This document shows positions 11,117-53,087 of a stretch of 64,000 nucleotides of DNA, in pieces; position 1 is the first letter of the stretch, and each line of letters starts with the position of its first letter. This DNA is from Natrinema pellirubrum DSM 15624 (GTDB taxonomy: Archaea > Halobacteriota > Halobacteria > Halobacteriales > Natrialbaceae). The stretch is taken from contig NC_019963.1 of the NCBI RefSeq assembly GCF_000230735.2, positions 1 to 64,000 of the forward strand. The letters run 5' to 3'. The position numbers were made by a program, and so were the translations under genes. Under the pieces are notes generated by a model, which was not told the DNA's origin, did not search any database, and saw nothing but the letters and a program-made list of their open reading frames with translations.

Positions 11117-11128
11117 CCCCTCAAACCT

Positions 11129-11575: not shown

Positions 11576-11588
11576 ATCGTCCTGAGTA

Positions 11589-11804: not shown

Positions 11805-11819
11805 TTCGGTGCCCTCCAC

Positions 11820-11839
11820 CCCTTGAGGGCCAACAAAAA
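11820..11839 (-). promoter_or_regulatory. Leader palindrome H5
   Basis: CCCT (11820-11823) opposite AGGG (11826-11829), then an A-rich CAACAAAAAC. It lies 16 bases before the start at 11804. Confidence 0.55.
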
Positions 11840-11982
11840 CGATACTCTATACAGCGCCGGCTGGTTTTCCAAAAAAGGTGGCTGCCGAGCGATGATCCTC
11901 AGCTGGAATCTCAAACCAGAATTTCCTCCTCCTACGCAACTTCGATTCACGATATCTCGCTACCAGTGGCAATGAGCCCGTT

Positions 11983-27600: not shown

Positions 27601-27639
27601 CGTTCTCACCGTGATTCGGGAACTCGCCAGTACAGCGAG

Positions 27640-27669
27640 CCCCTCACCCATTGAGGGGTCAATAGAAAT
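27640..27669 (-). promoter_or_regulatory. Leader palindrome H17
   Basis: CCCCTCA (27640-27646) pairs over seven bases with TGAGGGG (27652-27658), followed by AATAGAAATT. It lies 40 bases before the tfb start. Confidence 0.7.
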
Positions 27670-27858
27670 TACCCGGTAGGTCAAATTGGTTGATGTGCGA
27701 CGTAGTTCTCGACTCCAATTCACACCTCATTCCTATTGAGGAAGAGACTGTCCGGCCTCTCGATCGTATACCCACGCCTTTTTCGGTCTCAGTTGGATTG
27801 GGTAATTGCCCGCACGTATTCCCACACTGTCATTAGGTAGGGGAATTGATTTGATCGT

Positions 27859-29388: not shown

Positions 29389-29564
29389 TCCCGATCTCGG
29401 GAGAGGAGTAAAAGGACGGCCACCACGGCCTCGAGTGATGTGTCAATGTAGTGGCCAACTGGATTACTGGCCGTGTGTGGTTGGTGGTCGACGACAAAGG
29501 ATGGGACATGTCGCTTGTGAGACGACGGAGTCCTTTTTTAATCCGTTACCGTAATCTGGAGAGT

Positions 29565-30488
29565 ATGTCTACCCGTCTCCGTTCTCTTGCCGACCGTCTC
29601 CGATCGCGTCTTGCTGTCGCTCGCTCGAAACTGCATATGAGAAGGGCTGGTCTAAAACGACACATCCGCTTTGAGTTGGATGGCTGGAAACCGAAGGTAG
29701 TCCTCGACGAACGGTACGAGAGCTTCGCCGTATGGGGCTCTAGAACAGTCACCGCTCTAGGTATCCTTACGAGTCTTCTTCTAATTCCTCCACCGATCAG
29801 TGTCGTCCTCGCAGTCGCGTTGGCCTCCCTCGACCTGTTCTTTGAACGCATCTCCCTGATGGTGCAGAGTATGTTTGTCCAGCCCTTGCCGGAGACGTGG
29901 GATTCGGATGCGTGGCAGGGCAACCTCTACCAGTATGACCGCGGGATGTGGGGCATTGGCCTGTTGTTCGACGACAAGGAAATTGCCCGAGTCGCGCTCG
30001 AAACCATTCGGGCGTGGAACTACGACGAGGACGTTGACCGAGATGGCAACATCAAAATGAGCTTTGTCGAACTGAACGATGGGGGGTATATGACCTACAT
30101 CTACCCTTCTGATGAACGAGAGAGTCTGAAAGAGGCCGCGAAGGAGGTCGAGCGGAAACAGATTGAGGAAGGGAAGATCAGAGAGCACTACCAGAATCGG
30201 TTTCAGGTGATAATGGCGCAGGACTTCGACAACCCTCTGGGTTCACATTTCAGGCGGTTCAAGGACCACTACGAAGGCGACCGGGTGATGCTGAACACGT
30301 TCACTACCGAGCGATTGGTGGACAGAGGGTCAGGGCCGATGGACGGCCTCCCGGACGAGTTCGGTGGTGTGGAGTCGATAGACCCCATCTCGCTGAAGGA
30401 GGTTAGGATCGCGCAGGAAAGCGATCTCGAACATAACTCAGTGGAGTACCAGCATCTGAAGTACGTGATGCCACTGTTAGAAAACTAG
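29565..30488 (+). CDS. Membrane-anchored protein next to the SIR2 gene
   Basis: A 307-residue protein. The N-terminus is very basic. A hydrophobic hairpin (VTALGILTSLLLIPPPISVV followed by LAVALASLDLFF) lies at about 65-100, then a soluble domain of about 200 residues with a central helix (EAAKEVERKQIEEGKIREHY). A TTTTTTA box at 29533-29539 lies about 26 bases before the ATG at 29565, which fixes this leaderless start over longer frames. It is on the same strand as the SIR2 gene but separately promoted. Function unknown. Confidence 0.7.
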   Translation: MSTRLRSLADRLRSRLAVARSKLHMRRAGLKRHIRFELDGWKPKVVLDERYESFAVWGSRTVTALGILTSLLLIPPPISVVLAVALASLDLFFERISLMVQSMFVQPLPETWDSDAWQGNLYQYDRGMWGIGLLFDDKEIARVALETIRAWNYDEDVDRDGNIKMSFVELNDGGYMTYIYPSDERESLKEAAKEVERKQIEEGKIREHYQNRFQVIMAQDFDNPLGSHFRRFKDHYEGDRVMLNTFTTERLVDRGSGPMDGLPDEFGGVESIDPISLKEVRIAQESDLEHNSVEYQHLKYVMPLLEN

Positions 30489-32550: not shown

Positions 32551-33417
32551 CTATTCTTCCCACCAGCGGCCGCGTTCCGGGAAGTGGATATCCGACCACC
32601 CGGTCAGCGCGATTGAGCACCGGCCCTCGTACCAGTTTTTGGCTGCCGCTCGGAACCGGACCGTTTCGCCTTCCTGCACGACTGTTTGGTTGCTCTTCTT
32701 CCAGCAGGTGAATTTGATTTTCCCGCTTTCATCCGCTATCAGCCCGACTTGCTGTATCGCGCTACTGCTCGGCTCCCAGAGGGTCTGCACAGTTCCTTCA
32801 ACCGTCACCTCCCCGACCGGGACATCCGGCACGTCCGCGATGGGCACGATCGCCCCCGGCGCAGCCTTCAGTTCTTCGAGGGTCTCCAGCACCGCCTTCG
32901 TGACGTCCCGTCCGCGCTGCACCTTCTCGGCCAGCTGCTTCGCGACGACCGCTCTCGACCAGCCGCCCTTCACCTCGTCGCTGATCCGCATTGCTTGCTC
33001 GTTGACCTCCGCGAGTTCCTCTTGCGTGAGCTTCTCTCGGGGATCCGTGCGCTCCGCCGGCGCCGGTTTGTCACGACCACACTGCTCGCTGACGACCTCT
33101 CGCGTGCGCTGCTCCCGACCGTCCTGCGTTCCCAGCTCGGCCTGGGCACTGATGCGCTCCAGTTCGGCGTCCCGCGCCCGAATGCGCTCCTCCTGTTCGA
33201 GGGTGACACCGTGAATCCGGTCCTCGCTCGTGTCCGCGATCCCGTCCGGGTGGTTCGCATCGACCTTCGCCTGCGTCTCCTGCTCGACAGCCGCCTCGAA
33301 CGCCGGCGTCTCGTCGACGACCGGGAAGCCATCTTCATCGACCGCCTGACCGCCCGCTTGCTCGAATGCCTGTTCATCGACCGAAACTACATCCGTGGTG
33401 GCGTTGTTACTTGACAT
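32551..33417 (-). CDS. RPA-like single-stranded DNA-binding protein
   Basis: A 288-residue protein. The N-terminal half is acidic and helical. The C-terminal 110 residues form an OB fold: GEVTVEGTVQTLWEPSSSAI, VGLIADESGKIKFTCWKKSN and VQEGETVRFRAAAKNWYEGR. It should coat single-stranded DNA during plasmid replication or transfer. The ATG at 33417 follows a highly structured G+C-rich leader region. The fold is clear; the plasmid role is inferred. Confidence 0.82.
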   Translation of the reverse strand: MSSNNATTDVVSVDEQAFEQAGGQAVDEDGFPVVDETPAFEAAVEQETQAKVDANHPDGIADTSEDRIHGVTLEQEERIRARDAELERISAQAELGTQDGREQRTREVVSEQCGRDKPAPAERTDPREKLTQEELAEVNEQAMRISDEVKGGWSRAVVAKQLAEKVQRGRDVTKAVLETLEELKAAPGAIVPIADVPDVPVGEVTVEGTVQTLWEPSSSAIQQVGLIADESGKIKFTCWKKSNQTVVQEGETVRFRAAAKNWYEGRCSIALTGWSDIHFPERGRWWEE

Positions 33418-36080: not shown

Positions 36081-36119
36081 GATGATATATTGTGCCGGCC
36101 GCTGATAGGACAGATATCG
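36081..36119 (+). promoter_or_regulatory. Promoter of the MBL-fold gene
   Basis: GATGATATATTG at about 36080-36091 gives a TATA-like box about 30 bases before the ATG at 36120. Confidence 0.45.
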
Positions 36120-37832
36120 ATGGAGATCCAGTTCCAGCACGCGAACCCGTATTCCGGGCGCGAATCCGTCGTCCTGCGGATCGATGGGTTGCTCGCCGAC
36201 CAGACGGTCTGCGTGCTCGTCGATGCTGGCCAGAACGTTTCGACCGACGATCTCCTCGACGACGACGCCGACGAATATCTCGCCGCGATCTGTCTCACCC
36301 ACGCCCACCTCGATCACTACCAGTCGCTCGGCGACGCCCTCGCCCACGGCGCGCCGGTGTACGCCGCCACCGACACGGCCACCATGCTCGAGGACGTCTT
36401 CGCTGCCGGCGCCGCCCACTACGACCTCACGAACACGGACCGTGTGCTCGACCAGCTGGAACCAATCGCGGAGTGGACGCGGATCGTGTCCGGCCTCCGC
36501 GTCCATCCCGTGCCGGCCGGCCACACGCCGGGCGCAGCGGGTTTCCTCTTCGAGGTCACTGCCGACGACGAGCGCCGAACGATCCTCGTCACCGGTGATT
36601 TCACGACCCGACGCGCAGCCGGCTATCCCGGTTTCGATCGCGACCTCCCCGTGAACGTCGACGTCCTCGTGCTGACCGCTGCGACGAGCGAGACGTTCGA
36701 AGCGACGCTCACCGACGCTGTCGGGGCGATCTGTGAACGCGTCTGGGCCGGCTCGACCGTCCTCACGACTGCCAGCGGCCTGACTGGGCTCCACCTCGCG
36801 TACCTCCTCGGCCACCTCGCCGACCAGTGGGACGAACGACTGCCCATCACGCTTGCTGGCCACGTCGCGAAGCTCTACGACCGCCTCGAGTACACCGTCC
36901 CGAACGTCGAGACGTCCGCCGAGTTCGCTGACCCAGCAGCGGTCTTGGAGGCGGATGGCGTGACGATCGCCGGGCCGGAGGTACCGATCGACGGGAGCGC
37001 CAAACGCCTCTTCGAGACGATTGCCGACGACCCCGGCGCGACGCTCGTCCAACTCATTAACGGCGGGACTGATCCGGTGGCGAGCGCGGCGTGTACGACC
37101 CACCAGTTCTCGCTCAGCAACCACCCGACGCCGCAGACGATCGACGATGTCGTCGAGGCGCTCTCGCCGGTCCACGTCGTCATCACGCATCAACAGGGCG
37201 CCGCCGCGGACCAGTACAAGGACAAGTACGATAGTTTCGTCTGGGCGACCGACGACACGGCCTGCTACACGCTCTTGGACGACTCGGGCTGGACGCCGCC
37301 ACCGTGGGTGACGGCGTCGACGAAACGTCGGGTGCAGTCTGGGCCGACCACGATGGGCGGGACGCTCGGCGACGCGCTCGCGGACGAGGAGATTCCGCTG
37401 CCGTCGGTAACGCGACTTGAGGACGTGGATCTCGAGGCGGAAGGACTCGACCTGGAAGCGCTTCGCGACCGGCTCTCGGTGGAGCGCGACGCGCAGACGC
37501 ACCAGGAGACAGCTACCACCCAGCAGGATGCCGACGGACGGGAGGATGCGGCAGGCTCAGCGCTGGCTGACGGGTCGGCCGAGGACTGGGCGGCGACAGG
37601 CGACGACCCGGACATCGAGACGGCCCTCGGGGGACTGGATGCTCGTCTCGACCGGATCGAAGCGGCCGTCACCGACCGTGGTGTCGACGCCCGCGTCGTC
37701 GATGCGGGCAACGGCACGCTCTTGCTTCGCCTCGAAGACCCACCAGACGATCTCGAACACGGGCAGCGTCTGCGGGTTGTTCTCCCGGGCGGACGGGTTT
37801 CGGATGACGACGACCACGCTGACCAGGAATAA
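36120..37832 (+). CDS. Metallo-beta-lactamase-fold nuclease-like protein
   Basis: A 570-residue protein. The MBL metal site is THAHLDHYQ (His61, His63, Asp65, His66), with PAGHTPGAAGF and VTGDFTTR supplying later ligands. The layout after the MBL core (helical insert, then VHVVITHQQGAAADQY) recalls beta-CASP RNA/DNA nucleases. The C-terminal 150 residues are acidic and end in a small beta domain (GNGTLLLRLEDPPDDLEHGQ). The first ATG giving a family-like start is at 36120. A role in plasmid RNA or DNA processing is inferred. Confidence 0.8.
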   Translation: MEIQFQHANPYSGRESVVLRIDGLLADQTVCVLVDAGQNVSTDDLLDDDADEYLAAICLTHAHLDHYQSLGDALAHGAPVYAATDTATMLEDVFAAGAAHYDLTNTDRVLDQLEPIAEWTRIVSGLRVHPVPAGHTPGAAGFLFEVTADDERRTILVTGDFTTRRAAGYPGFDRDLPVNVDVLVLTAATSETFEATLTDAVGAICERVWAGSTVLTTASGLTGLHLAYLLGHLADQWDERLPITLAGHVAKLYDRLEYTVPNVETSAEFADPAAVLEADGVTIAGPEVPIDGSAKRLFETIADDPGATLVQLINGGTDPVASAACTTHQFSLSNHPTPQTIDDVVEALSPVHVVITHQQGAAADQYKDKYDSFVWATDDTACYTLLDDSGWTPPPWVTASTKRRVQSGPTTMGGTLGDALADEEIPLPSVTRLEDVDLEAEGLDLEALRDRLSVERDAQTHQETATTQQDADGREDAAGSALADGSAEDWAATGDDPDIETALGGLDARLDRIEAAVTDRGVDARVVDAGNGTLLLRLEDPPDDLEHGQRLRVVLPGGRVSDDDDHADQE

Positions 37833-39358: not shown

Positions 39359-40630
39359 TTACTCGGAGCTACTCCCGAACAACCCTTTTGCCCGGCCCCA
39401 CACGGACGCTGTCTCGGACTCGGTACCGTCCTCACCAGAATCGACAGTGGTCGCTTCGTGGGGATTACTTGGCTCTTGGTCACGGTCTGTGGGTGCTTCG
39501 GTGAGTCGCTCGACTTCTGCTTCGAGGGTGTCGATCCGCTCGTTCTTCTCTGCCAGTGTCGCCTCGAGTTCGTCGACGCGCTCGGTCAGCAGCCGGTTCT
39601 TCTCGACCAAATACGCCCGACTCCGCTCCGAGTCATCGGTATCAGTGGCTGCCGACGAGTCGGTAGCGGGGTCGTGGGCGTCCGCGGTGTCGTCGCCGGC
39701 GTCTGGCTCGTAGAACTCCGAGGTACTCGTGATTGCTCGCTCGATGGTCTTCTCTCCATACGTTGATCCATCCGCGTAGTGGACCTCATCCCACTTCTCG
39801 CGAAGCAACCCGGACTCACGGAACAGTTGATCCATCTGCGTCCGGTCGCCGCCGGTCCAGAACGCCAGCAGACAACACAGCGCCATGTCAGCCTCCGACT
39901 GGCTATCGTACCCGACCGTGTTCCCGTTCCAGAGCCGCTCGAACTTCTCGCCGTTCGACGCGTTCCGGGCCTTCTCGAGGAGCACCTCATCCTCGAGGTC
40001 AACTTCGACGTTGACTGCACCGCTCGTTGCTGACTCCCCGTTAGTCGCGCCACGGGGCTCGGACTCGGACGCCGTGTCGCTGCCAGTGTCCTGGACGTAC
40101 TCGCGGTGAATCGCCGCGAGCGCGTCCTGCCGGCGGGCGACGTGAGTCGGTGTCTCGTCAACGTGGTCGCCGGTAACGGTGAAAAACCGCGCCGTATCGT
40201 ACAGTTCGATGCTCCCCCGCCGATTCCGGCCCTCCGGGAGTTCACCCCTGAGGAGAACGTGATAGCCGGTGCCGGACGGCGACACCTCCGTGTAGGAATC
40301 CAATCGGTCGATGATGTCTCGCGCAGCATCGTCGACGTCGCCGGTCTCCGGATCGCGACAGTCGTCCAAATCGACGCCGACGATGGGGTCGTCGTCGGTG
40401 AACACGAACCCGACGCCGTCCGCGTGCTCTGTCTCGGTGTACTCGAGTGCCGTCTCGAAATCACTCCAGGTATCTGATTCCGTCGACGACGCGAACCCAC
40501 CAGCCCCCGGCGTCACCGGAATCTTCGTCGGTTTCCCATCTCGATCCTCTTCGCGCCAGCACACCCACTGCTCGCGCTCACGCACCCCCTCGGGGAGCCC
40601 CGAGACAGCGAGCGACGACTCAGACACCAT
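39359..40630 (-). CDS. Primase-polymerase-like protein (NrS-1 type)
   Basis: A 423-residue protein. VGFVFTDDDPIVGVDLDDCR contains the DxD metal ligands (Asp87, Asp89) of an archaeo-eukaryotic primase fold; SGTGYHVLLRGELP is the nucleotide-binding strand. A helical bundle follows (ADMALCCLLAFWTGGDRTQM) like the helix-bundle domain of NrS-1-type polymerases. The C-terminus is a coiled coil (about residues 330-380). It probably primes plasmid or transfer replication. ATG at 40630 chosen; a longer frame runs into the iteron region. Confidence 0.82.
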   Translation of the reverse strand: MVSESSLAVSGLPEGVREREQWVCWREEDRDGKPTKIPVTPGAGGFASSTESDTWSDFETALEYTETEHADGVGFVFTDDDPIVGVDLDDCRDPETGDVDDAARDIIDRLDSYTEVSPSGTGYHVLLRGELPEGRNRRGSIELYDTARFFTVTGDHVDETPTHVARRQDALAAIHREYVQDTGSDTASESEPRGATNGESATSGAVNVEVDLEDEVLLEKARNASNGEKFERLWNGNTVGYDSQSEADMALCCLLAFWTGGDRTQMDQLFRESGLLREKWDEVHYADGSTYGEKTIERAITSTSEFYEPDAGDDTADAHDPATDSSAATDTDDSERSRAYLVEKNRLLTERVDELEATLAEKNERIDTLEAEVERLTEAPTDRDQEPSNPHEATTVDSGEDGTESETASVWGRAKGLFGSSSE

Positions 40631-40987
40631 CGATCCCCCTCGCGGTGAGCGTCCATCTGGACATCGTCCACTCACTATCACGATGTTGATAAACACCCAA
40701 CCATCCGGTGGGCTGTTCGCTGTCCTGTCCAACGGGGACATCCCGTTCTATACTAGTTGGTTTTGGCCTTCGATTTGCCCTGAACATTGCTCCCGTCCTG
40801 TGATTTTCCCCTGAACAACCCTCGGATTCCTGACCTGAACGGCTGCTCTGCCCTGAACAAACCCGATAATGGACCAGAGATTGGTGGATAGAACGGCTAA
40901 CAAGGGATGATTGGGATAAGGGCGATGCAGCAAAGTGAGCCAGTCGGCGACCCTCGTGGATTGCGTTCATAATTCTGATAAGAGGAG
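40631..40987. other. Intergenic region with iteron-like CCTGAAC repeats
   Basis: This 357-base gap lies between the primase and coupling-protein genes. It contains four direct CCTGAAC copies and a TGTCC/GGGACA hairpin at about 40729-40742. No gene is seen. Confidence 0.55.
40778..40859 (+). repeat. Four direct CCTGAAC repeats
   Basis: CCCTGAACA at 40778-40786, 40809-40817 and 40851-40859, and ACCTGAACG at 40833-40841. Spacings are 31, 24 and 18 bases. Confidence 0.7.
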
Positions 40988-43900
40988 TCATTCAAGGAGC
41001 TGTAATCCGTCTGTGGTCAGATCGATACCAGAGTAGACCGTCACCAAATCGTCGCCGTCTCTGACACGGTCATCCTCATACTCGATGACGTTCGAAAGCT
41101 TCCGACCGAACCAGCTCGCGTTTGTCCCATCGATGTCGTGCTGGTCAGTCCACTTCGAGTACGCTTGAAACAGGGTCGCCTTCGGAACCTGCGCTCCATC
41201 AGCCTCTCTGATGTACATCGCCGCGAACGCCTCGATGCCGTCACCATCTGGCTCGATTTCCACTCCCTCCGCTACTGATGAACCTGATCCAGCCGACGGG
41301 GCCGACTCCGCAGCCTCCCCCGAGTCTGGAGTCTGACTGTGCTCACCGGTAGGGTCGTCAGGCCATAGCTCGTCGTTGTCCGGTGATGCAGGCAGTTCGT
41401 GTGTGTCACCCTGCTGGAAGAGTGTGGGACTGCCGTCTTTTGGCAGTATCAGCACGAGGTAGCTGTCGCGCGAATACTCCGCGTCTGGCAGGTCGACGTC
41501 AGGGAGGAACGGCCGTTTGATCGGTGTCCACTCCGCCTCGAACTCCTCGCTTGACTCGTACGTCCGCGTTTCGCCGGGTTGATGGACGGTATACTGGCCG
41601 GATTCGCGGTCGTGACTGTAGTAGGCTGGCACGTCATCTTTCGAGAGCGGTCCATCATCCGGAACGCGGGCGAACTCCGTCTCACCGTCCGACAGTACGC
41701 GTTCACCGCTCTTGCGTCTCCAGACTGTCCGATTCGTGTCGGACGTACAGGGTCGAACGGCGGTGACGCCACCGTGGGCTGTTGCACCACCGCCGAAGGT
41801 CACGACCTCGTCGCAGTTGTAGAACTGTTCGGTGCCGTCCGCTCGCTCTCGCAACGGTACCGAGAGAATGTTCTCGACGCGTGATGCCCACTCTGTTTCG
41901 GGGTCACCTGGGCGAACGACGAAAATCGGGATGCGATCTGCGTCGTGCGCTCGTTTGAGGTTCTGCAAGACTTTCGCGGGCCGATCCGGTGTCGTCGTCT
42001 CGGCCTCGATGTTGAACACGACGTCGTGATCTGGGTGCGTCGCGATGGCGTCGGGTTGCTCGCTGCCGTCTTGTTCGAGGATATCGACGCTAAACCCGCG
42101 CTCGGTGAGGCCCCGCTCGGTCTCCACGAGCACTGCATCGTGGTCAGACCCGCCTGCCGACTCGACGTCGCCCGTTTCAGGTTGCACTTCTGCTTCGCCG
42201 GCCTCGGACAGTCGCGTCACGACATCACCATCCTGCAACTCGACGTCGATCAACCGCGACGCGTTACGGACCTCTGGTAGGTCATCGTCCGCGTAGTCGA
42301 TGTCGGAATGAGCGTTCTCAAGGCGCGTCGCCAGTTCCTCGTCGACAGCCGTGACGTCCACCCAGCCATTTGCCTCGCGGACGTCCGCTCGGATTTGGAC
42401 GGCGCGAATCGCGTCAGCCATCGTCTCGGCCAGGATTTTCGTCGGGTCCGCTGCTTCGTTGGCGTCGCTGTAGATGAGATTCTGCATAATCTCCGCGTCG
42501 GTCAACGGGTCGGTTCCATACCGGTCCAAACTCGCCTCGATGATATCGTCGACTGCATCCGATGACCGTAGTGGGGGATACGGTGGGAACGTCCGGAGGA
42601 GGACAGGTTCGGAGTACCGACCGCCCTCTAGTGGGAGTTTCGTCCAGGCCTGGTACTGATCGGTCGAGATGAGGTCTTCGGCAGTGTAGTCGCGGAATCG
42701 CTTCATCAAGAGCTGGGCGTCGTCGACGTCGTTCACGGAGAAGGCGATGAGGTTGTCGCAGTTGTTCTGCATCGCCTTCCGCGTGTCCTCGCCGAACTGC
42801 GAGGGATACTGAGAGGACAAGGTCACGGAGAGACGCATCGATCGGGCGCGGGCGAGCATCGACTCGATATCGAGGTTTTCGCTCGCGATGTCGTCGAACT
42901 CGTCACAGAGCACGAAGTAGGGATCTGGATCGGTATCGTGCTCGTAGGAGCGTTGTTGGATGGCACTCCAGAGGTTCCGCATCACGCCGAGCGTGACCAT
43001 CTTCTTGATGTCTGTGTTCTCGACGGGCGTCCGGACGATGACGATCCGATCGTTGTCGATGATGTCACGGAAGTCAATGGTGCTCTCGCGGTGGGAGATG
43101 ATCCGCCGGATGACCGAGTTTTCGACCCACGACTTGATGCGTTTGAGCAGCGGGCGGATCGTCTCGTCGTCCATCCGCGCGATTTCGAAACAGAATTCCC
43201 TGACGTAGGGATCCTCGACGTCGTAGGCGAACTCTTCGCGGCGCTCGGCGTGCAACAGGGTGAAGTACATATCGATCACCGAGAACGGCTGGTCGGACTG
43301 CATCATCGCCCGGCCCATCGACTCGGTGATCGACTCCATGTTGATCCCCCAGTACTCGTCCGTATCGAAGATCGCTTTCAGGTTCTCGATGCGATTCTCG
43401 ATCTCGTTCTCACGCTCCTCTTCAGTCTCGCAGTCGGGGACTTCGAGGAAGTTCAGCCCGACCGTCTTGTCGTGCTCGGATGAACCAGGTTCGATCCAGA
43501 CGACGTCTTTGAGCCGGTCTTCGGGCAGCATCCGCAGGAGTTCGCGTGAGTCGCGGCCTTTCGGGTCGAAGTATACGAATCCATACCCTGAATACGCCCA
43601 CTGGACCATCATGTTCAGCAACTCTGTGGTCTTCCCGTAGCCGGTGGTTCCCGTAATCCAGATGTGCCGGAAGAGAGACTCGAAGCGGAGCGGGGCTTCG
43701 CGGAACCCTCGTTGGGCGTCCTCGTCGTACCCAATCCACAGCGGCGATGGAGCTGTATCGACACCCGATTCTAGCATCTCGCGGACGTGTGATCCGGCGA
43801 CGGTGCCCTCGTTCAGCGTCTCAGTGACGACTGGCTTGCTCCCGACGTAGTCCGTCTCCTGTTCGGTGATATCGTACGTTTCGCCAAGCAGCGACTGTGG

Positions 43901-44047
43901 ACCCGGACTGGTCCCAGTCATCCGACCTGCGTCACCCTCGAAGCTCTCGTCGGACCTCGCTTCACGTGGCGTGTCGTCGCTCTCTGACGTGCCTTCCGAC
44001 GTAGCGTCCTGGTCGGCGTCGTCGCGACCGAAGAAGCGATCAAACAC
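40988..44047 (-). CDS. VirD4/HerA-like coupling ATPase with fused nuclease-like and winged-helix domains
   Basis: A 1019-residue protein starting with GTG at 44047, overlapping the upstream gene by eight bases. The FtsK/VirD4 ATPase core has Walker A GTTGYGKT (about 133-140) and Walker B YFVLCDEFDD (about 377-386). From about 638 to 723 a region with PDAIATH and, 16 residues on, the EAE of FNIEAETTT looks like a PD-(D/E)XK nuclease fold. The C-terminal 80 residues (VPKATLFQAYSKWTDQHDID, WFGRKLSNVIEYEDD) resemble the winged helix at the end of D5/P4-type primases. It should bring plasmid DNA to the transfer channel. ATPase assignment strong; added domains inferred. Confidence 0.82.
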   Translation of the reverse strand: MFDRFFGRDDADQDATSEGTSESDDTPREARSDESFEGDAGRMTGTSPGPQSLLGETYDITEQETDYVGSKPVVTETLNEGTVAGSHVREMLESGVDTAPSPLWIGYDEDAQRGFREAPLRFESLFRHIWITGTTGYGKTTELLNMMVQWAYSGYGFVYFDPKGRDSRELLRMLPEDRLKDVVWIEPGSSEHDKTVGLNFLEVPDCETEEERENEIENRIENLKAIFDTDEYWGINMESITESMGRAMMQSDQPFSVIDMYFTLLHAERREEFAYDVEDPYVREFCFEIARMDDETIRPLLKRIKSWVENSVIRRIISHRESTIDFRDIIDNDRIVIVRTPVENTDIKKMVTLGVMRNLWSAIQQRSYEHDTDPDPYFVLCDEFDDIASENLDIESMLARARSMRLSVTLSSQYPSQFGEDTRKAMQNNCDNLIAFSVNDVDDAQLLMKRFRDYTAEDLISTDQYQAWTKLPLEGGRYSEPVLLRTFPPYPPLRSSDAVDDIIEASLDRYGTDPLTDAEIMQNLIYSDANEAADPTKILAETMADAIRAVQIRADVREANGWVDVTAVDEELATRLENAHSDIDYADDDLPEVRNASRLIDVELQDGDVVTRLSEAGEAEVQPETGDVESAGGSDHDAVLVETERGLTERGFSVDILEQDGSEQPDAIATHPDHDVVFNIEAETTTPDRPAKVLQNLKRAHDADRIPIFVVRPGDPETEWASRVENILSVPLRERADGTEQFYNCDEVVTFGGGATAHGGVTAVRPCTSDTNRTVWRRKSGERVLSDGETEFARVPDDGPLSKDDVPAYYSHDRESGQYTVHQPGETRTYESSEEFEAEWTPIKRPFLPDVDLPDAEYSRDSYLVLILPKDGSPTLFQQGDTHELPASPDNDELWPDDPTGEHSQTPDSGEAAESAPSAGSGSSVAEGVEIEPDGDGIEAFAAMYIREADGAQVPKATLFQAYSKWTDQHDIDGTNASWFGRKLSNVIEYEDDRVRDGDDLVTVYSGIDLTTDGLQLLE

Positions 44048-45167
44048 GATCCTCTCCTCCCTGTCTGGCCGGTCGCTCGTCAGACCGGTGTCTAGTCGCA
44101 GATTGTTCGTACTGGTCCGTATCTGCGGGGACGCGGTCGCCGCGCTGGGTGTAGCGCCAGTCGATATTCGGCGTCTCGATCTCGTTGTTCGGGATATGGG
44201 CAACGCCGGCGAGCTCGTCGACAGTCATGATCATGCGCCGGTCGGTCCACTCGCGGTCAGCCATCCGAGTGACGTGCTGGCGGAGCTGTTTCGCGCGCTT
44301 GCCGTCCTTGCGATGCCAGACTGGCGTATCGTCGAGACCCTGCTCGGTGATGGCGTTATAGTACTTCCTGAACATCCCGGCGACGCCACGGGCACGGGCC
44401 TCGGCTTCGTCTTTATCCGTGGACGCTGCGAGGACGCGGATGTTGACGTGGAACGCCTGCTGGCCGCGCTGCTGCTCGATGGTTTCGGCGGCCTGTTTGT
44501 CCTTCTCGCTCGCTGGCCGCGTGCGGGGATTCAGCCACCCTACAGAGGTTCCCTGTCGGAGTGCGTGAGCGAGGTCGTCGACGCTGTTGTGCTTGAATCG
44601 GTCGCCGTCCGTCCAGGACTGCTTTGCCGGTCGGAAGACGACCTGCGTGACGACCGTGCTGTCGTCGAGTGTGAGCATCTCGCTTGTAATCTCGCCGTAC
44701 GGGTCGTTCGCCCATTCGTCGCTGTTGTGGTGGCGAATCGGGTAGTACGGAAGTTTCTCCATTTCGAGCCACGCACCAGCGACGTACTCGTCGGGGTCGA
44801 TAACGGGGAAGGCAACTCCTCCGTCGACGGGGAACACCTCGCTGTTGGCGTAGTTGTTGCCGACGCGGCGGCGGAACTTGTCGGCGGCCGCCTCGGTCGC
44901 GGCGTGCATGTAGAACGTGATCTTCCCCTCGTCGAACCAGACCTCGAAGGAGTGGTGGTCGCTCGTGTTCTTCCCCCGGAAGTTCGTCGTAACGTCGTGA
45001 ACTGATTGGAGTAGCCCGGCGCCGTCGACGACGCCCTGGTTCTCTTTGAACGGGCGAATTCGGAGCAAAATCCCCGGCGCATCCGCCGGCTGCTGGACAA
45101 GTGGTTCTTCGATCGGTAGCTGTGTGGCGTCGTACTGCGAGGTGCCGCCGAAGAGTCGGTTAATCAT
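44040..45167 (-). CDS. Conserved conjugation-operon protein of unknown function
   Basis: A 375-residue protein starting MINRLFGGTSQYDATQLP. It overlaps the VirB4-like gene (8 bases) and the coupling-protein gene (8 bases). HSFEVWFDEGKITFYMHAAT and HVNIRVLAASTDKDEAEARA recall the N-terminal, non-ATPase part of VirB4/HerA-type proteins, so it may be a partner that lost or never had the ATPase. The C-terminus is charged and basic. Function unknown. Confidence 0.7.
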   Translation of the reverse strand: MINRLFGGTSQYDATQLPIEEPLVQQPADAPGILLRIRPFKENQGVVDGAGLLQSVHDVTTNFRGKNTSDHHSFEVWFDEGKITFYMHAATEAAADKFRRRVGNNYANSEVFPVDGGVAFPVIDPDEYVAGAWLEMEKLPYYPIRHHNSDEWANDPYGEITSEMLTLDDSTVVTQVVFRPAKQSWTDGDRFKHNSVDDLAHALRQGTSVGWLNPRTRPASEKDKQAAETIEQQRGQQAFHVNIRVLAASTDKDEAEARARGVAGMFRKYYNAITEQGLDDTPVWHRKDGKRAKQLRQHVTRMADREWTDRRMIMTVDELAGVAHIPNNEIETPNIDWRYTQRGDRVPADTDQYEQSATRHRSDERPARQGGEDRV

Positions 45168-48100
45168 CGTCACTCGCCTCCTCCTCGGACTGACTAGCGT
45201 CCTCGCCGCCATCGGCGAGCGCGGACGTCTCCTCCGTGCCGTTCCGCCGTGCGTTTGCGACCACCGCCTCGACGATCTCGTCCTCGGTGAATCCATCATC
45301 GAGAATGCGAGTGGCCTCGTCCTCGCAGAGATCGTAGCGACTGGTGAGGGCATTCATCCGCGCCTCGTTCTCCACGAACGCCTCGAAGTCGACCAGTTCT
45401 TCAGACTCATCGCTGATGGCTTGCTGGATGAACTCCTTATCTGCTGGTTCGTAGTCGATGACGCGTTTCTCGAAGGGGTCCGCAACGACGTGGAGCGGAT
45501 ACGTCCCGTGTTCCTCGACGCAAACGAGCGCCTGACTGTAGCCGAGATCCTCCTTCCCGGCATCCGCCCCACGAACGTACTGGCGCTGCTCGCGCGTCAG
45601 CCCGATTTTGTCGGCCGTTTCGTCGTCCAGATCGGGCAGTTTGTGGAAGACTTTGATCGGGCACATGCCGAGGATCTTCTCGGCCTGGTCGGTCTCGTAG
45701 AACTCCTGGGCGGTCTGCGACAGTAAGACCATCCGGAGGCCGGCGTGGCGCTGGTGGCGGAACGCCGTTTCGAGGAAATCGAGATTCGCTTGGTCTTCGA
45801 AGAGGTAGTGGGCCTCGTCGATGGCGAGTTCGACGTTGCGGTCGGTCTTCTTCGCCTGCTGGTAGACCGTCGACAACAGCAACTGCATCAGGAACGTCTG
45901 CCGGTCGATTCCCGACGCACTCCCCTCGATCTGCCCGAGGTCGATATAGACGACCTTGTTGTCACCCTCGAGGATATTGACTTCTGAGCGTTCCGCGAGG
46001 TTGTCGTACGATCCGCCCTCACGGAAGGGCTGGAATGCGATCGCCAATTCGTCCGCGTACTCTGCAGCACGTTCGCGAGCAGATTCGGACGCCGCGATGT
46101 TGTGCTCGTCAGGGTTTTCCGCGACATCAGCGAGAATCCGATGGACGTCGGTCATCGTCGGCGAGTTCTCGGGCGTATGCGTCGAGATGTCGTCTTCGAC
46201 GACACCGGCCTGACGGTACGCCTCGTCGATGACGTACGAGAGTACGCCCGTCTCAGTCCCGAGGTCGATGTCACGAGCGGTCAGGAAATTTTCGAGGACG
46301 GCGTAGACTTCGTCTTTCTTCGCGGACAGTGGGGAGATGCCGTCCTCGGCGTTGAGGACTTCCTGTGGCGTCTCACGGATCTCCAGGGGATTCAGATGTG
46401 TGTCGCCACCCACCGTGATCGTCTTCGCGTCCAGGGCGTCGGCGATGCCTCTGAACCCTCCGACTGGGTCGATCATCACGAGCATCGTATCCTGCTGGCG
46501 TTTCATCATCCGCAGGTGACGCATGATGTCACCGAACGTCTTCCCGGCGCCGGGCATTCCGACGACGAGTTCGCTGTGGCCGGTTTCGAGGTTCCACGGG
46601 TTGATCTGGACGGGTGAGCCGTTGTGGCCGTGGTAGCCGTACTCGACACCCTCGTCCATCATCATGTAGTTCGACGAGAACGGGAACATCGCCCCGATGG
46701 CTTGATTCGTCAGCGTCGACATCCGGTCGCGACCGAGTTCGTTCGCACCGAGGGGCGAGACAGTTGCAAGCCCTTTCTCCTGCCAGCGGTTCGCGACTTT
46801 GAGTGTGCAGTTCGCCGGGGCGTCCTTGACGATCGAGCGTAGCCTTGTCGTCTGGTTATCGAGTTCCTGCTTGCTCTCGGCGGATAGTCGGATGAAGACG
46901 CCGCCACGGTAGAACGACGCCTTGTTCGCACGGACGAGTGACCGCATGAATTTCCCACGGTCGATATCGTCCTGGAGGTCCTCGGCTTTGAGACTGTTGG
47001 CGTCGTGCTGGTTGACCTTCAGATCCGAAATCCAGTCGGCCATCATGTCCTCGGCCGATTGGGTGTCGAATGGGTCGAGATGGATGCTGATGTCCGTCTG
47101 TAGCTCAGTCTCCAATAGAAGGCGCTCGAACATCCCGTCGGCAGGCTCTTCTGGGAACTGTTCGATCCAGAACGTCCGAACATACGTGTCGTCGTTGATG
47201 ACGGCGTAGGTCGTCTCCCAGTCGACCGTCGACGGCGCGATCACCGATTGATGTAGCGTCGACGTGTCGCCGAGGCGGTCCTGATCAGCGATCTCCGTTT
47301 CTGATGCCTTACTGTCTCCACTATCGAGGTCGTCCATCGCATCGACGACATCGTCTGGATCGGGCGTCGACGGTACGTCGTCGCTAATGCCGTGGGCGAC
47401 GACTGGGAACGTGCCGATTGCGTCAGTGATGTCGCCATACTCCTCAGTCCGTCCCGTCCAGTACTCTTTGGTCACACGGGTGAGGTCGTAGGCGTCGACC
47501 GGACTGACTGAGCAGCGGTACAGCGAGGACCCACCGCGGCGAATCTGGCCGAGGCGGGATTCTAACTTGTCTTCCTTGAGTCGGTCACGTTCGGCCTTGG
47601 AGAGACCATCAGACTGGAAGCGGCCAAACACGCGCCCCACGACAGGGATGTCGGCGAGGTAGGCGAGTACGCTGTCGCCGGTTTCGTCGAGCTGTTCGAC
47701 GTCGGCGTCGCGAACGGCGGTGATAATGTAGTATTCGCGGATGGTCGTGCTCTCGGAGTCGATATCGCCGTTCTGGTCGGTGTTGGTGGTGATGTACTCG
47801 TCGAGCAGTCGCTTGAGGACGGGCCGTGAGCGGACGTCGGCGTCACCGAGGCGACGCTGGTGGTCGCGGACGCTGTCGTCCTGGTCGACCTCCCGGCTAG
47901 TGATATAGAACTTCACGGGGAAGTCGATGGTCGCGTTGACGAACTCGGAGAGCGAGTCCACGGCTTTCGCCCACGCCTCGTCATCCTCGAGGGCCATGTT
48001 CGCCGGCTCGATCTTCATCGCACCGACAAGCGCGCCGTCTGACCGCTCGATGGCATGCGGGAAGACCTGCCCAACGCGAGTTAGATAGCGGACCTCGCTA

Positions 48101-48417
48101 TTGTCCTCGCCGTGCGTGTACTCTTTGTTCTTGACTGCCCAGCCGAGCCGTGCGGCTAGCCACTCGGTGAGCCACAGGTAGGAGGGCTTCACTTTGTGGA
48201 GCACTCCGAGGACGAGGCCGAGCATGATGCCGAACCCGAGAACGGGAATGGTGAGTGCGGCCGGGACGAGTGCTGCACCGACGAGCGTGACGAACGCCAC
48301 GCCGACGAACAGCATGATCTCGCCAATCGTGTACCCCTGGAAGAACGCTGTCGTGCCGCCGAGTGACTGATGGATCCGTCGGGCGCTGTACTCCTGGTCG
48401 TCAGTGTTCGTACTCAT
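45160..48417 (-). CDS. virB4: VirB4-like conjugation ATPase with N-terminal VirB3-like membrane segment
   Basis: A 1085-residue protein. Residues about 31-72 form two membrane helices (IGEIMLFVGVAFVTLVGAAL and IPVLGFGIMLGLVLGV), as in VirB3-VirB4 fusions. Walker A is GMPGAGKT (620-627) and Walker B is VELAIDEAHYLF (862-873); LRMVLLSQTAQEF follows as in VirB4/TraC. It powers pilus assembly and DNA transfer. It overlaps the downstream gene and follows the VirB6-like gene by four bases. Confidence 0.9.
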   Translation of the reverse strand: MSTNTDDQEYSARRIHQSLGGTTAFFQGYTIGEIMLFVGVAFVTLVGAALVPAALTIPVLGFGIMLGLVLGVLHKVKPSYLWLTEWLAARLGWAVKNKEYTHGEDNSEVRYLTRVGQVFPHAIERSDGALVGAMKIEPANMALEDDEAWAKAVDSLSEFVNATIDFPVKFYITSREVDQDDSVRDHQRRLGDADVRSRPVLKRLLDEYITTNTDQNGDIDSESTTIREYYIITAVRDADVEQLDETGDSVLAYLADIPVVGRVFGRFQSDGLSKAERDRLKEDKLESRLGQIRRGGSSLYRCSVSPVDAYDLTRVTKEYWTGRTEEYGDITDAIGTFPVVAHGISDDVPSTPDPDDVVDAMDDLDSGDSKASETEIADQDRLGDTSTLHQSVIAPSTVDWETTYAVINDDTYVRTFWIEQFPEEPADGMFERLLLETELQTDISIHLDPFDTQSAEDMMADWISDLKVNQHDANSLKAEDLQDDIDRGKFMRSLVRANKASFYRGGVFIRLSAESKQELDNQTTRLRSIVKDAPANCTLKVANRWQEKGLATVSPLGANELGRDRMSTLTNQAIGAMFPFSSNYMMMDEGVEYGYHGHNGSPVQINPWNLETGHSELVVGMPGAGKTFGDIMRHLRMMKRQQDTMLVMIDPVGGFRGIADALDAKTITVGGDTHLNPLEIRETPQEVLNAEDGISPLSAKKDEVYAVLENFLTARDIDLGTETGVLSYVIDEAYRQAGVVEDDISTHTPENSPTMTDVHRILADVAENPDEHNIAASESARERAAEYADELAIAFQPFREGGSYDNLAERSEVNILEGDNKVVYIDLGQIEGSASGIDRQTFLMQLLLSTVYQQAKKTDRNVELAIDEAHYLFEDQANLDFLETAFRHQRHAGLRMVLLSQTAQEFYETDQAEKILGMCPIKVFHKLPDLDDETADKIGLTREQRQYVRGADAGKEDLGYSQALVCVEEHGTYPLHVVADPFEKRVIDYEPADKEFIQQAISDESEELVDFEAFVENEARMNALTSRYDLCEDEATRILDDGFTEDEIVEAVVANARRNGTEETSALADGGEDASQSEEEASDDD

Positions 48418-48421
48418 GAAA

Positions 48422-49618
48422 TTACCACCGTGAGACTTTCTCTTTCGTATTTTTGAACGCCTGCTTCGACCGGGCCTTCGCCGCCTGCGATGCCCGACTT
48501 GCGTCTTCTTTCGCCTTATCGCGCATCCGCCCGGTCTTCGATTGCCGCAGGTTGTTGTAGCGGCCTGCGTGATCCGTCGCTGACTGGGCGGAGGAACCTA
48601 GTTTGTAGGCGTTCGAGTCGCCGCCCCCGAGCTGGGCCTGTCCGCTCTTTGTCACTGGACCAGATTTGTTCTGCGCGTATCCTCGATGCACGTTCCGGGC
48701 ACCGCGAACCGATTTCCCAGTTCCTTTCTTCGCGGCTGAGGCGGCAGCTGCCGGATTCGTATGGGTAGCTCCCCGACGGGCGATTGTCTGAATCGCGGGG
48801 GCAGACCAGTAGACGGTCATAATCGAGGCGATACAGGCTGCCGGAATGAGCACGAGTCCGAGGAATAGCGAGAAGATTCCACTTGCGCTCGCTGTGAGAT
48901 CCATCTGCCAGCCGATCCGGAAGAGGACTGCAGCAGGAAGTCCCGCGAGAACCAGACCAGGGTAGATGCCGGCGGCACGGCGAGCAATCTTCGAGGCCGG
49001 GGTGAGGGGCCATACGTCGAGGGCCCAGAAGACGCCGAGCAACGGCATCAACGGGGTGAGCACGAGAATGCCCAGCCAGCGGAGGCCGTAGACGAGGCCA
49101 GCAACGATGAGCAGGAAGTTCGAGACGAGAGCCATGGCGAGAACGACGAAGAGGCCACCGACTGCTGACTCGATGAGACTCCCAAACCCTGCCGACATAT
49201 CGTTGATTGGGGCAAGCGTGAGGCCAACTGCATTGACGAATTGGAGCGGGATCGACACAAGGGGGAACCAGACGAACGATCCCATGAATACGAGCCCGAT
49301 ACGTCGGAGAAGACGCTTTCGTCGGTAAGGACTGATCGACCCTGACCGCAGACCGATGTAGGCGAGCCCGACGATGAGCAACATTACCGTCAACGGCAGG
49401 ATATACTGGAGATAGAAATCTGCGTACAGGCTCTGCCATGGCGCATTATCAGGGGTGCCGACGACGATGTACCGGGAGTTGGATTCCGGCGCAGGGACAC
49501 CGACAATCGGATTGAGAAGGGCCCTGAAAATGTCGTTCGCGAACCCGAGGAGTGCCTCTTTGATGCTGTTGATGACGTTCTCGATGGCGTCCTGTACCTG
49601 TTCCTCAAGCCATCCCAT
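48422..49618 (-). CDS. VirB6/TrbL-like polytopic membrane protein
   Basis: A 398-residue protein. The first 290 residues hold about six membrane helices (ILPLTVMLLIVGLAYIGLRS, LLIVAGLVYGLRWLGILVL, IFSLFLGLVLIPAACIASIM). The last 110 are basic, Ser/Ala/Lys-rich and probably cytoplasmic. Topology and position directly before VirB4 fit the inner-membrane channel subunit of a type IV secretion system. Assigned by topology and context, not motif. Confidence 0.75.
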   Translation of the reverse strand: MGWLEEQVQDAIENVINSIKEALLGFANDIFRALLNPIVGVPAPESNSRYIVVGTPDNAPWQSLYADFYLQYILPLTVMLLIVGLAYIGLRSGSISPYRRKRLLRRIGLVFMGSFVWFPLVSIPLQFVNAVGLTLAPINDMSAGFGSLIESAVGGLFVVLAMALVSNFLLIVAGLVYGLRWLGILVLTPLMPLLGVFWALDVWPLTPASKIARRAAGIYPGLVLAGLPAAVLFRIGWQMDLTASASGIFSLFLGLVLIPAACIASIMTVYWSAPAIQTIARRGATHTNPAAAASAAKKGTGKSVRGARNVHRGYAQNKSGPVTKSGQAQLGGGDSNAYKLGSSAQSATDHAGRYNNLRQSKTGRMRDKAKEDASRASQAAKARSKQAFKNTKEKVSRW

Positions 49619-50509
49619 TCAGGCATCCTCCCCGTTCGACGTCGTCTGGGTCGAGTCAGTCGGGCCACCGTCGACGATGGTGAGCTCGCACGAGTTGTTC
49701 GTTCCACCGTACTCAATCGTCTGTGAGTACGACGGGTTCGCCCCGGCCTGGACGGCTCCAGTTACTGTGAGTGGAGCCGTTCCGAGGTCGCTACAGTTGA
49801 CGTGTGCCCCCATTCCAAGACGCCCCTCGGTCTGGTAGATCGGAGCCGACGAGTAGACGGTCGTCGTCTCACCGGCCGGAAGGAGTGTATTGTGGCCGAA
49901 TTCCATCGTCTCCTGTGACTTCACTCGACAGAGCGGGGCGTCCGTCCACCGGGCCATGGTGAGGAACGACGGAGCATTCCCCGTATTCTCGATAGAGAAC
50001 GCGGCGAGTTGCTGCCACGTCGATCTGTCTTTGTCCCAGTCCATGTCCGGGTGATTCTGGGCCCACATGACGTCTGTAATCGTGAGTTCGGGCTCAAGGG
50101 AGATCGTCGTCTTGCCGATGGGCTCGTCACCAGCGACGGCGACGACTCGGTACTCTCCGGGAGTGTACCCGTCTTCGGCTTCGCCGAGTAGCTGAAATGT
50201 AACCTGTGTCGCTCCCTCTTGCACTCGCTGAAGCGAGTTCATCTCACCGTTCGGGTTGATGAGATTCACCGAATCAGCGTTAGTGTCGCTAGCGAGTTCG
50301 ACGACGAGGCCGGTCTCGGTCATCGCGACGCGCTCGAAGGCATCGCTCTCGCCTCCCGGTGGGGGCGACGTCTCAGAACCCGGACTGGTGGGTTCGGATG
50401 GCGATGAGGAACACCCAGAGAGCGCGACGAGAGTAGCGCTAAGGCCACTGAGAACTGTTCGACGGTCAATACACTTGCCGTGAGTGGGAGCTGTTGTGTT
50501 GTCGTTCAT
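49619..50509 (-). CDS. Tat-exported lipoprotein of the conjugation operon
   Basis: A 296-residue lipoprotein. A twin-arginine signal (DRRTVLSGL, Arg16-Arg17) ends in a lipobox LSGC (Cys33). The mature part is Ser/Pro-rich and then beta-rich (SIENTGNAPSFLTMARWTDA), suggesting Ig-like domains on the cell surface. It shares four bases with the upstream surface-protein gene. Perhaps a pilus-base or mating-surface component. Confidence 0.8.
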   Translation of the reverse strand: MNDNTTAPTHGKCIDRRTVLSGLSATLVALSGCSSSPSEPTSPGSETSPPPGGESDAFERVAMTETGLVVELASDTNADSVNLINPNGEMNSLQRVQEGATQVTFQLLGEAEDGYTPGEYRVVAVAGDEPIGKTTISLEPELTITDVMWAQNHPDMDWDKDRSTWQQLAAFSIENTGNAPSFLTMARWTDAPLCRVKSQETMEFGHNTLLPAGETTTVYSSAPIYQTEGRLGMGAHVNCSDLGTAPLTVTGAVQAGANPSYSQTIEYGGTNNSCELTIVDGGPTDSTQTTSNGEDA

Positions 50510-52266
50510 GTTCGGTTTGTGAGTCCGAGCAGCGCCCCGTCGGACATGTAGTCGAAGCCGAAAACCAGGACTCCAACGGGGATGAACCAGAGAACCGTTA
50601 CGACGACGAGCTGGATGAGCGTCTGGAGGTCGGGGAAGTTCGCTGGTGTCTTCGTGACATCCTCCGACGCAGCGTAGGGCTGGTCAGTCCGCCACCAAGC
50701 GGTCGGGGTGTATTGGCCCCGAACGACAATCGCTGGGTCCGAGATGGTAACGACGGCCATCCCACTGCTGTTGAGCGCCGTGGTCTGGTTTCCGATGGTC
50801 AGGCGGCCGGTCGTGACAGCGTCGCCAGTTGCGCTCTCCGTAACCACCGCACGAACGACCGCGTGGGTCGCGTTTGTTTCAGTGACTGTCAGGGTGAGAT
50901 TCGTTTCGCGGACGGTCTGCTGCTCGGCGAGGGTGACTGTTCGCGATTGTCCGCGGACGATGCCATACACTGTGACTTCGCGGAGGGCACTCCCATCGAG
51001 GGTTGTGGAACTCAGCGCAATCGAATCTGCGTTCACGTACGGATCCGCAGACTCAAGGACGATGTTCGACGGCAGTGACGGCCCTGTCTGTTCGGTTCCC
51101 CACGTTTCCTCGATAGTGAGCGGGCGCTCACCATCGTCGGTCAGTTCAGTTGGTACGTACGGCGCTTGCCGGCTCGGGAACGCGTGAACTTGGACGGGGC
51201 GCACCGACGACTCAGCACGAGACGTGTTGGTCGCGGTGCTGGTGACCATCGTCTGCCAGCCGGATCGCCCGGCCGTGTAGAACCACCAGTTACTCCGGGC
51301 CCGAACGTCGCCGTCAACCGTGATCGACGACCACTCCGTGTTCGGATGGACGACCGCGCCGACCCGGTCTTCGTGGGCCTCGAACTGGACGCGTTTGCCA
51401 GTGATGTCCGAAAATTGATTGACAACGACGGACTGTGACGTCGACACCGTTTTCGACGCTTCGAGGGTTTCGATGTCGCGAGTCCAGTCGCCGTCACACC
51501 CGGATGTCGATGAGTTCCAGTCCGGACAGTCAAGCGTTATGTGGCGGAGCCGTACCGTGATATTAGCCTCGACGGTCAACTGCTGCGATTCCGAAAGATC
51601 GGTGTACTGGAGCGTGGCCTGATGTCCGCTCCCCGAGTCAATAGTTCTCCCATCAGCGGAGAGTTCAACGGACTCGATGCTCGTTCGCTCGATCGACCAG
51701 CGTTCTCGATGCGATCCGTTCGTATCATCTTGGGGGACGGCAACGCGGTGGTCACTGATCGTGCGGACCTGGCCGTCCGGGGCAATGTATCGCGTCGTTC
51801 CGTTCGCGTGATGGAGAATCGTCGACGGCTGAACGCCGAAGATGCTAACATACGCATCCTTGATGTACACACCGTCTTCGAGGAATGCACCGGCAGGATG
51901 GACCGAGGAACCTCGACCACCAGGGTTGTAATCTCCGAAATCGCCGCTGTTCCAGTTCGAAGCAGCCTGTGGTGGGCGAGCGAACGGGATGTCCGTTGAC
52001 CGGGCAAGCCGATGTGCGAACTCAGCCCGCGATGAGACGTTTGTGTCATCGAAATCGTCGACCGAGAGGTTGCCGTTGTCGACGTCTTCCGACCAGAGCC
52101 GCTGGAAGGTGCTGTTGTTCACGCCGTAGGCGGGCCCGTCGTCAGGAACAGAATCCCCGGGATCCGAGGGGGTGACTCCGTCCATCCCTCCGGCGACGAC
52201 AATTCCAGCGGTGCTACTCACGAGGAGGAGGGCAAGCACGGAGGCCATCGGGCGGGGGGCGTGCAT
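50506..52266 (-). CDS. Large secreted surface protein of the conjugation operon
   Basis: A 586-residue protein. A Sec signal (MASVLALLLVSSTAGIVVAG) is followed by a long beta-rich ectodomain with many N-glycosylation sequons (NNST, NLTL, NQTT, NTSR), and a C-terminal membrane helix (LIQLVVVTVLWFIPVGVLVF) with a short cytoplasmic tail. No known domain. Its place between pilin and lipoprotein suggests a role in cell-cell contact. Confidence 0.75.
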   Translation of the reverse strand: MHAPRPMASVLALLLVSSTAGIVVAGGMDGVTPSDPGDSVPDDGPAYGVNNSTFQRLWSEDVDNGNLSVDDFDDTNVSSRAEFAHRLARSTDIPFARPPQAASNWNSGDFGDYNPGGRGSSVHPAGAFLEDGVYIKDAYVSIFGVQPSTILHHANGTTRYIAPDGQVRTISDHRVAVPQDDTNGSHRERWSIERTSIESVELSADGRTIDSGSGHQATLQYTDLSESQQLTVEANITVRLRHITLDCPDWNSSTSGCDGDWTRDIETLEASKTVSTSQSVVVNQFSDITGKRVQFEAHEDRVGAVVHPNTEWSSITVDGDVRARSNWWFYTAGRSGWQTMVTSTATNTSRAESSVRPVQVHAFPSRQAPYVPTELTDDGERPLTIEETWGTEQTGPSLPSNIVLESADPYVNADSIALSSTTLDGSALREVTVYGIVRGQSRTVTLAEQQTVRETNLTLTVTETNATHAVVRAVVTESATGDAVTTGRLTIGNQTTALNSSGMAVVTISDPAIVVRGQYTPTAWWRTDQPYAASEDVTKTPANFPDLQTLIQLVVVTVLWFIPVGVLVFGFDYMSDGALLGLTNRT

Positions 52267-52317: not shown

Positions 52318-52803
52318 TTAGAAAGGCTTCACGCAGTCCGAGAAGCCAAAGCCCATCTGGCTGCCGACCTTGTCGATGAGTTCGGGCGAGACGAGCGCAA
52401 GGACGACGATGCCAAAACCGATACCGGACATGACGAGTTTTTCTTTGGCATCGTTCTTCTTCTCAGGGTTACCGCCGGCGCGCATATATGAAAGACCAGC
52501 TTTCCCAGTGTAGAAGCCGGTTGCAGGAAGACCGAGGCCAGCGACCGCGCCGAACACAAGGTCGATCCCGGTCGCGACGCCGGTGTTGCAGTACACGTCG
52601 CCGACCTGATTCTGGGCAGCGGCTGGACCGACAGCGACGACGAGGAACGCGAGCCCCATCGCGAGGGATACAACTCGCGGGGGAACACGGGTGAGGGTCG
52701 GTTTGAGATGGCTGCTGTCCGAGGACTCGGTCGGCTGGTCGTCGGTGGAGGGCGATTCAGTGGCCGTTGCATCGCTCGCCGGGTCAGGGGGTGAATTGTT
52801 CAT
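52318..52803 (-). CDS. VirB2/TrbC-like pilin candidate
   Basis: A 161-residue protein. A charged N-terminal stretch of about 45 residues precedes a signal-like helix (VVSLAMGLAFLVVAVGPAAA, predicted cleavage after AAA). The mature part has two hydrophobic helices (LVFGAVAGLGLPATGFYTGK and LVMSGIGFGIVVLALVSPEL) joined by a charged loop, the VirB2 pilin plan. Two Cys (YCNTG and DCVKPF) could form a disulfide. Confidence 0.72.
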   Translation of the reverse strand: MNNSPPDPASDATATESPSTDDQPTESSDSSHLKPTLTRVPPRVVSLAMGLAFLVVAVGPAAAQNQVGDVYCNTGVATGIDLVFGAVAGLGLPATGFYTGKAGLSYMRAGGNPEKKNDAKEKLVMSGIGFGIVVLALVSPELIDKVGSQMGFGFSDCVKPF

Positions 52804-52817: not shown

Positions 52818-53087
52818 CTAGTCGGTGGAGGGATCTGTCTCGAGCAGGGCGTTTAGGTCATCGATGCTGGAGGTCTGTTCAAGAAGGTCTTCGAGGTCTC
52901 GACTGGTATCGGTGAGCGCCTCCTCGGCGAGTGTCGAGAGTTCGTCCCGATCGATGTCTCGATACGTCATCTGCTCGGTCAATGCTTCACGGAAGAGCCC
53001 GGATGCGTTGATGCCGGTCGCCCAGCTGAGGAATAAGGCATCGGCGGGCTTGATCGATACAGTAGTGTTGACAGTGTTCCGTGACAT
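52818..53087 (-). CDS. Ribbon-helix-helix regulator heading the conjugation operon
   Basis: An 89-residue protein. TTVSIKPADALFLSWATGIN then ASGLFREALTEQM has the strand-helix-helix form of RHH (CopG/Arc) regulators; an acidic helical tail follows. First gene of the leftward operon, so it probably autoregulates it. RHH proteins also act at plasmid transfer origins. Confidence 0.72.
   Translation of the reverse strand: MSRNTVNTTVSIKPADALFLSWATGINASGLFREALTEQMTYRDIDRDELSTLAEEALTDTSRDLEDLLEQTSSIDDLNALLETDPSTD

Follow-up and report, generated by a model that had tools for sequence, protein, structure and literature searches.

The closest described systems are the VirD4/TraG/TrwB coupling proteins, whose ATPase core is found together with an adjoining VirB4-type ATPase and a T4SS pilin. 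The Sulfolobus plasmids, Thermococcus pT33-3 and the thaumarchaeal ICEs, compared here by description, likewise carry VirB4 and VirD4 homologues and no recognised relaxase, and the available parts of their descriptions contain no nuclease-fused coupling ATPase. According to the available parts of three papers (PMC3158045, PMC6563490, PMC12857230), no relaxase, or very few, have been identified in archaeal conjugative elements, and from 2011 to 2025 the start of transfer without a recognised relaxase was called open. Guglielmini and colleagues suggest that unknown relaxases exist in archaea. The step concerned, DNA cutting for transfer, would be filled by the HUH relaxases (MOB families).

The locus described here lies in the window, a 64,000-nucleotide stretch of a secondary replicon (276 kb) in a haloarchaeal genome. 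Its central gene, designated P0001, is a 1019-aa ORF in a conserved operon on the minus strand, with a GTG start at 44047. Compared with VirD4/TraG/TrwB proteins, (i) P0001 adds, after the ATPase, three predicted domains, namely a winged helix, a nuclease and a P4-type winged helix; and (ii) the front part is probably encoded by a separate 375-aa gene.

Operon and ATPase core

The features of the locus, all on the minus strand, are as follows.

39359–40741, minus: NrS-1-type primase-polymerase with a helix bundle domain, without a helicase (6a9w, PF22763, phrog_1829)
40988–44047, minus: P0001, coupling ATPase with predicted nuclease and two winged helices, 1019 aa (Pfam; homologues)
40991–41251, minus: C-terminal winged helix of P4/D5 primase type, residues ~933–1019 (structure and profiles)
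41393–42160, minus: predicted restriction-endonuclease-like domain, residues ~630–885, core 633–711 (AlphaFold models and structural matches)
41999–42052, minus: catalytic-type motif D666-x14-E681-x-E683 (invariant in 49/49 aligned homologues)
42176–42427, minus: first winged helix, residues 541–624 (AlphaFold; ORC1 winged helix Z 8.8, TubR Z 7.8)
42443–43747, minus: VirD4/TraG-type ATPase core, residues ~101–535 (Pfam and alignment)
44040–45167, minus: 375-aa protein, probable detached front of the coupling protein (profile match)
45160–48417, minus: VirB4-type ATPase (NCBIfam CD1110-family VirB4-like E 4.8e-52, under the curated cut-off)
48422–49618, minus: conserved hydrophobic protein in what may be the VirB6-like channel protein position (conserved, 26 loci)
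49619–52266, minus: pair of operon genes for proteins of 296 and 586 aa (conserved in 24 and 23 loci, respectively)
52318–52803, minus: T4SS pilin (PF18895 E 6.4e-9, over cut-off)

Three VirD4/TraG-type Pfam families match P0001 above their cut-offs, namely TrwB_AAD_bind (28.0 versus 20.5 bits), TraG-D_C (27.9 versus 22) and T4SS-DNA_transf (26.6 versus 20.1 bits), and the core carries a Walker A motif (GTTGYGKT, residues 133–140). By these profile matches P0001 is a VirD4/TraG-type coupling ATPase, in agreement with an earlier note on this DNA, which had read a VirD4/HerA ATPase core from the letters. Family searches with the hydrophobic protein at 48422–49618 gave no significant match.

A second haloarchaeal T4SS class (L070, L073, L078–L083 and similar loci) has the front protein fused to the ATPase (chains of 1318–1565 aa) and shares the nuclease, the winged helix and the primase. 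The 375-aa protein encoded upstream of P0001 is similar to the front of this fused class at the profile level (probability 94.5, E 8e-8), and is therefore probably the separated coupling-protein front. As a candidate for a hidden relaxase it was rejected: it has one invariant His, one invariant Tyr and no HxH, and it matches the coupling-protein front.

Several further genes surround the operon. A small conserved ORF of 89 aa (52821–53087) lies upstream of the pilin gene in many relatives and is possibly the first operon gene. A TFIIB-like transcription factor gene (26674–27723; PF00382 E 2.1e-36) also accompanies the T4SS in eight further loci, and the available part of the source reports a link to TFIIB for thaumarchaeal ICEs. 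At 27859–30488, a gene for a SIR2-like domain protein (PF13289 E 1e-22) precedes one for a 345-aa protein that matches no family; the pair could be a two-gene defence system. The product of 32551–33417 resembles OB-fold single-strand-binding proteins (weak Pfam match), and proteins of this type accompany the T4SS in 13 loci and also occur close to a second operon on the same replicon (described below). Two related metallo-beta-lactamase-fold proteins with HxHxDH are encoded on this replicon (36090–37832 and G000:C2:116033-118321), as are four related P-type metal ATPases (56818–59100 in the window; G000:C2 20572-22944, 65871-67958 and 78472-80763).

Predicted nuclease domain and winged helices of the P0001 tail

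The tail of P0001 was aligned over residues 541–1019 (479 columns) with 49 homologues, whose identity falls to about 22%. Only 12 of the 479 columns are invariant, and they include D666, E681 and E683, as well as H636, Q659, T686 and N696. When the set is widened to 72 distinct sequences, E681 and E683 are each kept in 72/72 and D666 in 70/72, the two exceptions being shifts of the local alignment, with the D present in the full alignment. AlphaFold models the whole tail with a pLDDT of 82, and residues 622–897 alone with a pLDDT of 87 and a pTM of 0.83. The modeled domain runs in the order helix, three strands, helix and strand, corresponding to an alpha-beta-beta-beta-alpha-beta core, in which D666 is predicted to start the second strand and E681 and E683 to lie on the third.

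Structural comparison of the isolated domain returned Can2, PaqCI, AF1548 (Z 8.4), FokI (7.8) and Hjc (7.3), together with BspD6I, YaeQ, XisH, VRR_NUC and HindIII. Almost every structure matched is a nuclease or a protein of the PD-(D/E)XK superfamily. Because single Z-scores are middling on the comparison tool's own scale (best 8.6), the case for a nuclease rests on the uniformity of the match list and on the conserved residues. The best Foldseek E-value is weak (0.04). On the models, the P0001 tail has a restriction-endonuclease-like fold with an invariant D...E-x-E centre. It shares its core order and conserved acidic centre with PD-(D/E)XK nucleases such as Can2, PaqCI, FokI, Hjc and the BspD6I nickase, but differs from them in having E-x-E instead of E-x-K and in being fused to a DNA pump, and it has no close relative among solved structures.

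The earlier note had placed a PD-(D/E)XK centre at PDAIATH...FNIEAETTT (residues 665–686, ~42.06–41.99 kb) and proposed an AlphaFold model of the tail as a check. The restriction-endonuclease-like core is present in both models, and the three acidic residues hold throughout the alignment, which speaks against a chance pattern; the classical motif does not hold in full, since the position of its lysine is a glutamate in all aligned homologues. In BamHI, too, E-x-E replaces E-x-K.

The nuclease is flanked by two predicted winged helices. The one at residues 541–624 had not been seen in the earlier note. The C-terminal one (residues 933–1019) matches RFX (Z 11.5), the phage P4 origin-binding domain (Z 9.2) and the C-terminus of AsfvPrimPol (Z 7.6). 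The Pox_D5 profile matches the last 80 residues of P0001 itself weakly (E 0.04–0.1) and is found in 30 of the 49 relatives (best 7.5e-7), while phage primase profiles match the tail in up to 27 of the 49. The primase-type winged helix that the earlier note had recognised in these 80 residues is upheld by these structural matches and by both sets of profiles.

P0001 homologues occur in 173 of 292 haloarchaeal genomes. In other families of the euryarchaeal phylum, too, the nuclease profile detects coupling ATPases (592–959 aa), and the D and E-x-E centre is kept in them. A DNA-level search of phages gave no match. The source genome holds four copies, two on each of the secondary replicons C2 and C3. 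The second C2 copy has its own T4SS operon (G000:C2:186784-199865), with an ATPase 75% identical to P0001 and its own primase-polymerase, and the two nuclease-bearing ATPases of C3 lie at G000:C3:24935-28009 and C3:178280-179104. At another locus, two adjacent proteins of 778 and 664 aa (L118:7566-9899 and 9936-11927) both match the nuclease profile; in the 778-aa protein the E-x-E is replaced by E-P-E, and this protein gave no match to VirD4-type ATPases.

Adjoining primase-polymerase and its co-occurrence with the tail winged helix

The gene at 39359–40741 lies directly downstream of P0001, and its conserved part starts near 40630. Its product matches the solved NrS-1 primase-polymerase (PDB 6a9w; E 5.3e-38) and PF22763 (1.7e-31), and the DxD and S-x-S-G-x3-H motifs are conserved among its relatives (66/66 and 63/66, respectively). 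No SF3 helicase was found in these relatives, whose open frames span 304–509 aa, none exceeding 650 aa. The equivalent gene in the public plasmid record of a relative is labelled 'hypothetical protein'.

A single phage primase profile, phrog_1829, matches the primase gene with its positions 6–341 (E 2.7e-94) and the last 80 residues of the ATPase with its positions 678–758 (E 0.0038). A phage-type primase-helicase is thus divided here, its two ends on adjacent genes and the helicase missing between them. The NrS-1- and pRN1-type primase-polymerase-helicases and the phage P4 alpha protein have the same primase-polymerase, helix bundle domain and terminal winged helix; by contrast, the ends here sit on separate genes, with no SF3 helicase.

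Neither this gene nor its co-occurrence with the tail winged helix had figured in the earlier note. Co-occurrence was counted over 85 distinct loci with sufficient downstream sequence. The primase gene follows within 400 nt in all 53 loci with the tail winged helix, and is missing from all 32 loci without it; since the loci are related, the association reflects few events and not 85 independent ones. One extra winged-helix locus, outside the 85, gave no primase match in its 1.5 kb of downstream room. Nuclease, tail winged helix and primase gene form one inherited unit. The existence of coupling ATPases with the nuclease but without the tail winged helix or primase implies that the primase is not always needed, and a search for a common downstream partner in this class found none.

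The ATPase and nuclease parts of P0001 have different nearest relatives. Compared with most relatives lacking the tail winged helix, the identity is 51–76% in the ATPase and 28–35% in the nuclease; compared with the long fused class, it is 21–23% in the ATPase and 49–60% in the nuclease. The P0001 group joins the group without the tail winged helix in the ATPase tree (SH-aLRT 100) and the long class in the nuclease tree (SH-aLRT 97), and the distribution of the winged helix needs three changes of state on the former and one on the latter. These comparisons point to an exchange of the nuclease-winged helix-primase unit between ATPase types, a conclusion that rests mainly on the identity reversal because constraining the ATPase tree to a single winged-helix clade was not rejected (p 0.067).

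Relaxase searches and proposed role

We consider it slightly favoured, at a probability of roughly 55%, that the module processes DNA moved by a relaxase-less haloarchaeal T4SS. The winged helices would place the pump on the DNA of the element, the nuclease would nick or cut this DNA to start or resolve transfer, and the motor would drive it through the VirB4/pilin channel. Docked via the tail winged helix, the primase-polymerase would prime the complementary strand; in effect, the transfer motor would stand in for the SF3 helicase of a phage-type primase-helicase. The earlier note had suggested that the fusion might itself cut or hold the transfer origin; cutting by the nuclease at a specific origin is a tentative extension of this reading, and a doubtful one. 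The search for a transfer origin found none: the conserved blocks upstream of the pilin are mostly the small ORF at ~52821–53087, and the region after the primase gene is not conserved.

The strongest alternative, though an unlikely one, is that the nick is made by a relaxase from an unrecognised family, encoded by the host or by another part of the element, and that the motor nuclease acts secondarily, for instance by trimming, by resolving joint molecules or by ending transfer. Such a relaxase would accord with the proposal of Guglielmini and colleagues, and the Holliday junction resolvases among the structural matches of the nuclease would suit a secondary role. PF03432, PF03389, PF08751 and PF02486 gave no match in the genome, with working positive controls; PF13814 and PF01446 gave none either, but no positive control responded for these two. 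The earlier note had seen no relaxase gene in the operon, and over the four control-backed families none is recognised on the operon, the replicon or the genome. PF08751 is absent from all 292 haloarchaeal genomes. PF03432-type proteins, which would favour a relaxase outside the operon, occur in 20 of the 292, but they are mostly of 170–253 aa and are equally common with or without the coupling ATPase (present in 12 of these 20 genomes and in 173 of 292 overall). Also against this alternative, the operon partner proteins contain no HUH pattern, and HUH-like motifs on the replicon are confined to two metallo-beta-lactamase genes and two large proteins. The P0001 nuclease itself, in which no HUH domain was found, differs from HUH relaxases in fold and chemistry. 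Among plasmids with a P0001 homologue, 108 of 110 are typed non-mobilizable.

It is less probable still that double-stranded DNA is moved, as proposed for Sulfolobus plasmids, with the nuclease linearising or releasing the circle and the primase replicating the element. The available part of the source cites this proposal for archaeal conjugation lacking a relaxase, and the structural matches include restriction-type dimers that cut both strands (FokI and PaqCI); however, the constant primase-polymerase neighbour better fits a single-stranded substrate, a point that leaves the systems without the tail winged helix and primase undecided. That the nuclease-like domain is catalytically dead and serves DNA binding or docking, as the glutamate in place of the motif lysine and the weak Foldseek E-values might suggest, is the least probable explanation, given that D666, E681 and E683 are invariant despite the divergence of the tail, outside haloarchaea too, and that BamHI shares the E-x-E.

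Taken furthest, processing by the module would amount to a new conjugation initiator, in which a motor-fused nuclease-like domain replaces the relaxase and, with the split primase-polymerase, forms a cassette exchanged between archaeal T4SS types; we put this forward only as a possibility. The available parts of the work on archaeal dark matter (PMC4158269) and on new primase families (PMC5862659) do not describe the fusion, which may have been described elsewhere.

P0001 offers a concrete, testable candidate, with named residues, for DNA preparation in archaeal conjugation without a recognised relaxase. The candidate is widespread in haloarchaea and present in other euryarchaea, and the processing reading predicts that the neighbouring 'hypothetical' gene encodes a primase that would act with the pump.
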